From positions 1 to 12,804 of the forward strand of contig JACNFQ010000015.1 in NCBI GenBank assembly GCA_014384545.1: DNA of 12,804 nt, written 5' to 3'. The position numbers were made by a program, and so were the translations under genes. The stretch is from a bacterium. GTDB lineage: Bacteria > UBP7 > UBA6624. This document shows, one piece after another, positions 1 to 11,676 of this stretch; the first letter of the stretch is position 1, and the number at the start of each line of letters is the position of its first letter. The notes under the pieces are model-generated. The model saw only the letters and a list, made by a program, of their open reading frames with translations. It searched no databases and was not told the origin of the DNA.

Positions 1-809
1 GGCGGTGTGTAGGACTCGTGTTTGGTGGCGGTCATCTTCTTGTTAACGCGGTAGAGGTCGTTGAAGTGATGGGGCTTAGAGAGGTTGACAGATTGGTTCG
101 AGTGGAGGGAGGGAGAACCATTGACTTGGTGGGATATACCACTGCTGCCCTCCTCTTGGAAGTAGTGTTCCAGTTGGAAGAGAGTGTACCCAGTGGAGGT
201 GTGGACATCTTAGCAACGGGGTTCATCTTGATTGCTTTCTTGATTCAAGTTGCTCGAGCGTCCATGGGAAAGCCCCTCTATAGAGTTTCTGAGCTTTCTA
301 CCACTTTTTTTGGTGTATTCTTGACGGCAGGATTACTTTCGTATATCTTTAGGTTTCATTCCCTTGCAGACCTCTTCCCAGATGCTTCTTGGCCCGCTTT
401 TGTTCTCATACCCGTGGTGGGAGCTTGGGGCTACGATTCCAGTGCTTTTTTTTCGGGAAAGTTTTTTGGCGAAGCGACCTACTTGCCCCACGTCAGTCGA
501 AAGACTTGGGAAGGTACGGCAGGGGGATTGTTGGGGGTTTCTGTAGGGATGGCTTTCTTTGCGGGGATAACGGGTCTTGCTCAGACGATTCCTGAGCTGG
601 GCAAGTGGTGGAGCTTAGGGCTGATTTGTGGATTGGCTGCCCAGGTGGGAGATCTGGGGTTCTCGGTCTTCAAGAGAGAGATGCAACTCAAGGATTCAGG
701 TAATTCCATTCCCGGGCATGGGGGCATCTTGGACCGATTGGACTCCTTTCTCTTCGTTCTTCCTGTAGCGTTTACATTGATGGGCATCTTCTTTGGGATG
801 AGTGGTTGA
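1..809 (+). CDS. cdsA: Phosphatidate cytidylyltransferase (CDP-diacylglycerol synthase), 5' end cut by window
   Basis: An integral membrane enzyme that converts phosphatidic acid and CTP to CDP-diacylglycerol and pyrophosphate, the branch point of bacterial phospholipid synthesis. The reading frame (first full codon at base 3) is open to the left edge, and the first visible residues already look like the end of the first hydrophobic stretch. The true start therefore probably lies just outside the window; the GTG at 18 is unlikely to be the start. About 268 residues are visible, slightly short of the usual 270-300. The C-terminal family signature is complete at about 663-743 (SVFKR, then KDSG, then PGHGGILDRLD), with the acidic and metal-binding residues present. 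Upstream of it are WGYDSSAFFSGK and KTWEGTAGG, the typical conserved cytoplasmic segments, with several hydrophobic helices between. The stop TGA shares one base with the ATG of the protease gene. The cdsA-rseP order is common in bacteria. Confidence 0.95.
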   Translation, partial: RCVGLVFGGGHLLVNAVEVVEVMGLREVDRLVRVEGGRTIDLVGYTTAALLLEVVFQLEESVPSGGVDILATGFILIAFLIQVARASMGKPLYRVSELSTTFFGVFLTAGLLSYIFRFHSLADLFPDASWPAFVLIPVVGAWGYDSSAFFSGKFFGEATYLPHVSRKTWEGTAGGLLGVSVGMAFFAGITGLAQTIPELGKWWSLGLICGLAAQVGDLGFSVFKREMQLKDSGNSIPGHGGILDRLDSFLFVLPVAFTLMGIFFGMSG

Positions 810-9770: not shown

Positions 9771-10820
9771 GTGATTCGTATCGCTGTTTTACCAGGGGAC
9801 GGAATTGGTCCCGAGATTACGGATGTAGCTGTTCGGGCTGCCACTTCAGCGTTGCCTGAAAAGATCCATTGGGAGAGGTTTGACGAAGTTACAACGCGGA
9901 ACTACGTAGAGCAGGGGATTGGTTTGGACGAAGAAAGGATGTCCCGAATACTGGGTTGTGATGCTATCTTTTTAGGTGCTGTTGGAGATGATTTGGACTT
10001 GGACCATGCCGCCCGTATCTTGCTCCGATTGAGGTTTGACCTAGATCTCTTTGTCAATCTTCGACCGATTCGCATGTGGGCGCCTTGGAAATCACCTCTG
10101 GCCAAGACTAAGGGAATCGATTTCGTAATCGTTCGGGAAAATACAGAGGGGTTTTACAAACAGGAAGGGGGATACAACAAGAGAGGAACCCCTGAAGAAG
10201 AGGCGTGGCAAAAGGGAGTTTATACACGAAAGGGAACAGAGAGAGTGATTCGTTATGCCTTTGAACTTGCAGTTGGAGAGAATCGCCAACGGGTGACGAT
10301 GGTGGACAAATCGAATGTCTTACGACATGGGCATCAGTTGTGGTTGGATATCTTTAAAGAAGTAAGCGCCGATTATCCTCAAATGGATACCGAACATCTT
10401 TATGTGGATGCGGCTACGATGCAACTCCTCAAGCGACCGACCTCTTTCGGGGTAATTGTGACGACGAATATGTTTGGAGATATTCTCTCGGATCTTTCAG
10501 CTCAGATGGTGGGAGGGTTAGGTTTAGCTCCTTCAGCTAATCTTCACCCAGGGGAGCTTTCTCTTTTTGAACCTGTTCATGGTTCGGCACCCAAGTATGC
10601 AGGTCTTGATATCGCCAACCCCTTAGCCGGCGTTCTTTCAATGGCGATGCTCCTGAAAGAGCGGGGGCAAACTGAAGCCTCCCTTCGCTTGGAGAATGCG
10701 GTCAGATTCGTCTTGAAGAATGGGCAAACGACCCGTGATTTGGGGGGGGATTTGGGAACAAAGGGTGTCGGTGATGCGCTCGTTTCTGCTCTTGAAATGC
10801 CTCAAAAAACGCCGGTGTAG
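9771..10820 (+). CDS. Isocitrate/isopropylmalate-family beta-decarboxylating dehydrogenase, probable 3-isopropylmalate dehydrogenase (LeuB-like)
   Basis: An NAD(P)-dependent enzyme that oxidises and decarboxylates a (2R,3S)-2-hydroxy acid. The 349 residues show LPGDGIGPE (7-15), [16 protein letters not shown] (84-99) with the substrate arginines, VRENTEG (121-127), YTR (151-153), DKSNVL (179-184) and [10 protein letters not shown] (233-242) with the metal Asp residues. The cofactor loop HGSAPKYAG is at 270-278. DKSNVL, the YVDAATMQL stretch and TRDLGG favour a LeuB-like enzyme, but RENTEG replaces the LTGG of classical LeuB and the acidic substrate-helix residue of LeuB is Ala, so tartrate/malate or homoisocitrate activity is possible. 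Lys 275-Tyr 276 match the pair that selects NADP in E. coli isocitrate dehydrogenase. The start is GTG directly after the preceding TAA in the same frame, with no ribosome binding site seen. The stop TAG (10818-10820) is inside the tRNA gene. Confidence 0.9.
10742..10765 (+). other. G-quadruplex-type motif in the coding strand
   Basis: Eight Gs (10742-10749), then ATTT, GGG (10754-10756), AACAAA and GGG (10763-10765). Splitting the first run as GGG-GG-GGG gives four G3 tracts with loops of two, four and six bases, which meets the common G4 rule. It encodes LGGDLGTKG, a normal segment of the dehydrogenase, so it may be incidental in a G-rich coding strand. It would also be present in the mRNA, 45 bases before the tRNA. 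Confidence 0.3.
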
Positions 10821-10882
10821 CTCAGCGGTAGAGCGGCTCTCTCGTAAAGAGCAGGTCACAGGTTCGAATCCTGTCACCGGCT
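10811..10882 (+). tRNA. tRNA-Thr, anticodon CGT
   Basis: A complete cloverleaf can be drawn. The acceptor strands GCCGGTG (10811-10817) and CACCGGC (10875-10881) pair perfectly. The D arm is GCTC/GAGC with loop AGCGGTA. The anticodon arm is GCTCT/AGAGC with loop CTCGTAA, giving T33 and anticodon CGT at 10843-10845, which reads ACG (Thr). The variable loop is five bases, and the T arm is ACAGG/CCTGT with loop TTCGAAT. The discriminator is T at 10882. No CCA is encoded (GAT follows), so CCA must be added by nucleotidyltransferase. The first ten bases overlap the end of the dehydrogenase gene, whose stop TAG is bases 8-10 of the tRNA. No separate promoter is evident, so it is probably cut out of the operon transcript. 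Confidence 0.96.
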
Positions 10883-10899
10883 GATTAGTCGGTAGTTTT
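10876..10899 (+). promoter_or_regulatory. Alternative hairpin sharing the tRNA 3' acceptor strand, followed by a T-run
   Basis: ACCGGCT (10876-10882, the 3' acceptor strand plus discriminator of tRNA-Thr) can pair with AGTCGGT (10887-10893) around the loop GATT: seven pairs including one G-T. AG and four Ts follow (10896-10899). This structure excludes the tRNA acceptor stem and has the form of a weak terminator ahead of lptB. Bases 10888-10895 resemble the tRNA 5' end. The cloverleaf stem is perfect and probably wins, so function is speculative. Confidence 0.28.
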
Positions 10900-10938: not shown

Positions 10939-11676
10939 ATGGAAGGGAAAGAGATTCGTGCAGAGGGATTGGTCAAGAAGTATGGGCGTCGAACGGTCGT
11001 AAAAGGGGTGTCGCTCCATGTTCCTATGGGACGAGTGACGGGGTTACTAGGTCCCAATGGAGCGGGAAAAACGACCACGTTTTACATGATTACTGGATTG
11101 GTCAAGCCAAACAAGGGTTCAGTCTTTGCAGGGGAAAAGAATATTTCTAGGTTGCCTGTATACAAACGAGCGAGGCTGGGGTTGGGGTATTTGGATCAAA
11201 GCCCCTCTGTTTTTCGCCGATTGACCGTGGCAGAGAACATCGCTCTCGTCTTGGAGATTCATGGTGTCCCTCATAAGGCGCGTGCAGAGCGCGTAGACGC
11301 ATTGATGGTAGAGATGGGGGTTCAGGACTTGTCGGAATCTCATGGATATGCGTTGAGCGGTGGAGAAAGGCGTCGGGTAGAGATTGCTAGAGCCCTTGCT
11401 GCAGACCCAGAGTTTCTCCTGTTGGATGAGCCCTTTACAGGCGTTGACCCAAAGCATATCCAACAGCTGCAAGATATTATTGTGGCGTTGAAAGATGAGC
11501 GAGGATTAGGAATCTTGATAACCGACCACAACGTGCGCGACACGATGGGGATTTCAGATTGGGTTTATCTGATGAATGAGGGAGAGATTGAGGTAGAGGG
11601 CAGTCCTGAAACGGTACGCACACATCCTCGGGCACGCGAGGTCTATTTGGGCGATCGTTTCGATTCCGAGACATGA
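10939..11676 (+). CDS. lptB: LPS export ABC transporter ATP-binding protein LptB
   Basis: The cytoplasmic ATPase that powers extraction of lipopolysaccharide from the inner membrane by LptB2FG. From ATG 10939 it has 245 residues, the family size. Walker A GPNGAGKT is at 38-45, followed by TTFYMITGLVKP, nearly diagnostic of LptB. The Q-loop Gln is at 87 in YLDQSPSVFRRLTVAENI, the signature LSGGE at 139-143, Walker B FLLLDE at 159-164 with FTGVDP, and the switch His at 197 in ILITDHNVRDT. The Q-loop normally reads YLPQE; here it is YLDQS. ATGs at 10915 and 10918 are possible starts and would add seven or eight residues. I prefer 10939 because AGGA (10926-10929) is well placed and the shorter N-terminus fits the family. 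It overlaps the permease gene by four bases (ATGA), as expected for subunits of one complex. Confidence 0.94.
   Translation: MEGKEIRAEGLVKKYGRRTVVKGVSLHVPMGRVTGLLGPNGAGKTTTFYMITGLVKPNKGSVFAGEKNISRLPVYKRARLGLGYLDQSPSVFRRLTVAENIALVLEIHGVPHKARAERVDALMVEMGVQDLSESHGYALSGGERRRVEIARALAADPEFLLLDEPFTGVDPKHIQQLQDIIVALKDERGLGILITDHNVRDTMGISDWVYLMNEGEIEVEGSPETVRTHPRAREVYLGDRFDSET

Follow-up and report, generated by a model that had tools for sequence, protein, structure and literature searches.

What becomes of a message whose stop codon lies inside the tRNA that follows it, and is such an arrangement used by the cell or merely tolerated? The question is raised by a dehydrogenase gene that runs into a tRNA-Thr gene on the same strand (Table 1) in the window, by which we mean the whole 12,804-nucleotide stretch of contig JACNFQ010000015.1 that was analysed. 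The 3' end of the reading frame is ...ATG CCT CAA AAA ACG CCG GTG TAG. ARAGORN and Rfam agree on the position of the tRNA, whose cloverleaf has a folding energy of -29.9 kcal/mol (z -2.9), corresponding to a stable fold. As the tRNA starts at 10811, its bases U8-A9-G10 form the stop codon of the dehydrogenase, and RNase P is expected to cut within the codon ACG. The initial annotation had described a structurally perfect tRNA-Thr(CGT), a stop at its bases 8-10 and a predicted cut between 10810 and 10811; ORF call, ARAGORN and Rfam bear out the tRNA and place the stop at exactly the same bases, and the cut agrees with the tRNA 5' end in both tRNA searches. The locus is thus an overlap in the sense used throughout, an ORF whose stop codon falls within a tRNA that lies downstream on the same strand.

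Table 1. Features of the dehydrogenase/tRNA-Thr junction and of the loci compared with it
Feature	Position	Strand	Remarks
Operon, genes 1-7			cytidylyltransferase (cdsA-like), M50 protease, glycosyltransferase, rimP, nusA, infB, rbfA
Operon, genes 8-14			DHH phosphoesterase, hisC-like aminotransferase, hypothetical, dehydrogenase, tRNA-Thr, lptB, lptF/G-type permease
Isocitrate/isopropylmalate dehydrogenase-family ORF	9771..10820	+	349 aa; GTG start; stop TAG 10818-10820
tRNA-Thr(CGT)	10811..10882	+	ARAGORN; Rfam RF00005, 73.8 bits; fold; CCA not encoded
ORF/tRNA overlap	10811..10820	+	10 nt; U8-A9-G10 doubles as stop codon
Predicted RNase P cleavage position	10810..10811	+	within codon ACG 10809-10811; placed by the tRNA 5' end
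Trailer hairpin	10876..10893	+	7 bp, tRNA 3' acceptor strand with trailer (ACCGGCT/AGTCGGT), then AGTTTTCCCT; terminator-like, weak
lptB, next gene of the operon	10939..11676	+	TIGR04406; start 10939 from relatives, alternative 10915
tmRNA, window's genome	C33:4675-5027
SmpB, window's genome	C33:4190-4597
Overlaps in the sister genus	L170:994-1070, L186:1641-1717, L184:1043-1118		10 nt, TAG stop; DAHP synthase/tRNA-Pro, glutamine amidotransferase/tRNA-Ala
Downstream tRNAs in the sister genus	L167, G001 C10:73785-74026; L195, G002 C36:21646-21728		L167: Tyr, then Gly, Thr; L195: Tyr
Overlaps in unrelated genomes			stop at tRNA bases 8-10 (ispE/tRNA-Gln), 21-23 (transposase/tRNA-Thr), 23-25 (tadA-like deaminase/tRNA-Ser)
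ispE/tRNA-Gln pairs	L315, L316, L317, L318, L320		G023 and relatives
tadA-like deaminase/tRNA-Ser(CGA)	L264:1621-1715		25-nt overlap

The ORF belongs to PF00180 (isocitrate/isopropylmalate dehydrogenase family, E 2e-94) and shares 63-64% identity with the sister-genus orthologues. It exceeds these proteins in length by only three residues, which excludes a spurious read-through. The conserved part of the enzyme stops upstream of the tRNA, so that the overlap is cheap for the protein. Among the NCBIfam models PRK03437 (3-isopropylmalate dehydrogenase) fits best, with 346 bits that fall short of the cut-off of 393. A profile search of the window's genome for LeuC, as a link to the leucine pathway, gave no match over the cut-off, only sub-threshold matches of the aconitase family.

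The tRNA-Thr gene is part of a co-directional 14-gene operon that makes up the window and has next to no spacers. Junctions between its protein genes range from -17 to +23 nt, and the genes overlap at 8 of 11. No sigma-70-like promoter was found on either strand between 10500 and 11100, using a model that may not fit the promoters of this phylum. The tight packing and the negative search make a shared transcript likely, and the operon transcript would be the simplest source of tRNA-Thr. The overlap is probably a tolerated by-product of extreme compaction, in which same-strand genes are laid end to end. A dehydrogenase gene without its own stop and with a tRNA directly behind it would terminate at the first in-frame stop, U8-A9-G10, at the price of about three added residues.

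It is unlikely, though less so than the schemes discussed further below, that the tRNA is instead transcribed from a separate promoter within the dehydrogenase gene. The two RNAs would then be mostly separate, and little nonstop message would be formed. Internal promoters for tRNAs do exist, and the promoter types of the phylum may differ from sigma-70, but no sigma-70-like site was seen in the searched interval and there is no intergenic room.

RNase P cleaves directly at the 5' end of the tRNA. The upstream piece of a shared transcript would therefore necessarily lack its stop codon, and a stop-less fragment is a sound expectation should this enzyme process the operon transcript. With compaction as the origin of the overlap, RNase P would most likely free the tRNA from the operon transcript. 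Ribosomes that finish ahead of cleavage would terminate normally at the TAG and would be the source of most full-length protein. Those still upstream at the time of the cut would run to a stop-less end and be cleared by tmRNA/SmpB. Both tmRNA and SmpB are encoded, next to each other, in the window's genome, and rescue of stop-less messages is therefore available. Its cost would be low enough for the overlap to be tolerated, making the arrangement presumably neutral. Control over the ratio of the two fates, normal termination ahead of the cut or rescue after it, is unsupported, as nothing in the data indicates any.

Two other genomes of the phylum, G001 and G002, from the same family and a different genus, were used for comparison. 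In both, the hypothetical gene, the dehydrogenase gene and lptB follow one another as in the window, no tRNA lies at the dehydrogenase/lptB junction, and the dehydrogenase, with 346 codons three shorter than that of the window, has a TAA stop of its own. The overlap is thus not conserved across related species, in keeping with compaction. Farther downstream in the sister genus, tRNA genes follow in the same orientation, 59 nt after the preceding gene. tRNA-Thr(CGT) was not detected in G001 or G002, which are 62-86% complete, so that its absence is uncertain; Thr(TGT) was detected in the relatives, and Thr(GGT) also in G001. tRNA-Thr(CGT) looks like a lineage-specific supplementary isoacceptor, with which the lower G+C of the relatives (33-37%, compared to 50-53% for the window's genome) agrees. 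Around 107 other leuB-family loci (912 kb, with a positive control run) no tRNAs were found, indicating that the pairing of dehydrogenase and tRNA is not a general feature.

These comparisons bear on the proposal of the initial annotation that tRNA maturation leaves a nonstop dehydrogenase message and thereby ties amino-acid supply to a tRNA. The anatomical part holds, given the operon packing and the negative promoter search. The specific link between dehydrogenase and tRNA-Thr is not supported: the annotation had left it to be judged by the junction in relatives, and these speak against it in spirit, having no tRNA there and a dehydrogenase with a normal TAA end. As a general theme, coupling of amino-acid supply to a tRNA is undermined by the occurrence of the identical overlap with other genes and other tRNAs.

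We consider it quite improbable that RNase P cleavage and dehydrogenase translation compete in a regulatory manner, linking tRNA-Thr output to enzyme yield. Such competition would fit the geometry of the overlap, the negative promoter search ahead of the tRNA and a genome that encodes tmRNA and SmpB, and it has a precedent in a hypothesis for selB/selC (PMC8124441). However, the junction tRNA is missing in both relatives, where tRNA-Thr(CGT), apparently a supplementary isoacceptor, was not found, and where this overlap occurs elsewhere, its partners have unrelated functions. The regulatory and amino-acid-supply reading is unsupported and is disfavoured by the relatives. A role of the split ACG codon as a sensor of tRNA-Thr(CGT) was rejected, because ACG should also be read by tRNA-Thr(TGT), which is encoded as well, and because a ribosome stalled at this codon would cover the RNase P site, the opposite of what homeostasis requires.

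Genes ending at this tRNA position recur. We located the tRNA genes of the three genomes of the family and collected same-strand CDS-tRNA junctions within 100 nt. Overlaps are present at 4 of the 41 junctions, every one with the stop exactly at bases 8-10, and represent three independent events; no gene of this set ends between -1 and +9. In G001 and G002 alike, the DAHP synthase gene (aroF) has its stop on bases 8-10 of tRNA-Pro(TGG). In G001, a class-I glutamine amidotransferase-like gene has its stop on bases 8-10 of tRNA-Ala(TGC). tRNA-Pro(TGG) of the window's genome has no overlap in the matching frame, which indicates that such overlaps come and go. Recurrence with unrelated partners and this absence both favour compaction, as does the frequency of genuine overlaps in seven unrelated genomes (160 tRNAs), at 3 of 34 junctions. 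Two of the genes concerned we take to be ispE and tadA, from their sequence and Pfam families. The tadA-like deaminase, of a tRNA-editing family, overlaps tRNA-Ser(CGA) in a small unrelated genome. Long ORFs that terminate within tandemly clustered tRNAs (93-118 aa; 81-98 aa) were discarded as translated tRNA sequence or spurious frames.

TAG occupies positions 8-10 in about half of the tRNAs of the window's genome (21 of 38) and in about half to three quarters across tRNAs, a count that tolerates a one-base uncertainty in the ARAGORN start. U8-A9-G10 is so common that it forms a natural catch for a gene without its stop, and a gene that loses its stop just ahead of such a tRNA has a chance of about 1/3 of being in the matching frame. 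A search of the openly accessible literature, which covers part of the journals, turned up no paper describing a recurring bacterial stop codon at U8-A9-G10, weak evidence of novelty.

A case of retention comes from an unrelated phylum, that of G023. The TAG stop of ispE is U8-A9-G10 of tRNA-Gln(TTG) in each of the five genomes carrying the pair, from two families. The five ispE proteins are 42-59% identical to the query and all end in ...GV. Where ispE and tRNA-Gln are in the same order elsewhere, the upstream ORF appears to end at -42, -13, -10, -3, 0 or +21. The pair shares its stop position with the window but is conserved in five genomes, whereas the dehydrogenase/tRNA-Thr overlap occurs in one only. 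As it was kept over a long divergence, the ispE overlap is compatible with both gene products, and long-term tolerance is possible, as compaction requires. However, retention in five of five genomes is more than might be expected from simple neutrality, unless stops newly arising upstream are damaging to the protein or the tRNA leader. The conservation of the pair would be compatible with selection or tolerance alike. We give little credence to the broader idea that U8-A9-G10 is a recurrent and sometimes selected stop for upstream genes. Complete translation and tRNA maturation would then exclude each other on every transcript, a simple built-in switch that the trailer hairpin would extend to lptB at this locus.

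This hairpin (-8.2 kcal/mol) and the acceptor stem of tRNA-Thr are mutually exclusive, a hint, against compaction, at more than packing. Its pairing is the longest of its kind among the 88 tRNAs of the family (single-case p 0.005), but at this p a set of 88 would be expected to yield about 0.4 such cases, and the result is not significant set-wide. We regard a translation-dependent attenuator as very unlikely. In it, a ribosome sitting on the stop codon would cover the 5' acceptor strand, leaving the 3' strand to form a terminator with the trailer before lptB; with no ribosome there, the tRNA would fold and transcription would run on. The terminator scan does include the hairpin, but its T tract is weak, terminator-like sites are about as numerous in the window as in shuffles (18 compared to 14.3, sd 4.1), and neither relative carries the junction, so that covariation cannot lend support.

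Related systems are known elsewhere. Mohanty and Kushner are said to have described, in 2008, E. coli mRNA-tRNA operon transcripts, such as secG-leuU, that are processed by RNase P. As in the transcript predicted here, a protein gene and a tRNA would be made together and parted by tRNA-processing nucleases. In the secG-leuU type the coding gene ends ahead of the tRNA and its stop codon survives cleavage, while the stop in the window lies inside the tRNA. In animal mitochondria, too, genes border directly on tRNAs or run into them, and the ends of the mRNAs are shaped as the tRNAs are excised. Many mitochondrial messages acquire their stop through polyadenylation, which would not be expected in bacteria such as that of the window.

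Among the closest known systems is the tRNA-Sec gene, which lies within selB or overlaps part of it in Alphaproteobacteria, Gammaproteobacteria and Nitrospirae (Mukai 2021, PMC8124441). It was proposed, as a hypothesis, that processing of this tRNA leaves a nonstop mRNA, with competition between protein and tRNA (PMC8124441). The dehydrogenase likewise enters a downstream same-strand tRNA, and in some species the selB stop is also inside the tRNA. However, the selB/selC overlap spans the entire tRNA or about 48 nt, with the stop at residues 46-48 (PMC8124441), compared to 10 nt and U8-A9-G10 here; its partners are functionally linked, whereas dehydrogenase and tRNA-Thr have no clear link; and it is conserved, while the overlap of the window is not. 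The latter is a short-overlap member of the selB/selC kind, for which the nonstop-mRNA hypothesis was already published in 2021.

The single case is minor, but the class may matter. Genes lying tight against a tRNA find a ready-made stop in the very common U8-A9-G10. In cells relying on it, each maturation of the tRNA from a shared transcript would leave a message without a stop. The ispE/tRNA-Gln pair would provide a natural test of whether bacteria tolerate this arrangement or use it.
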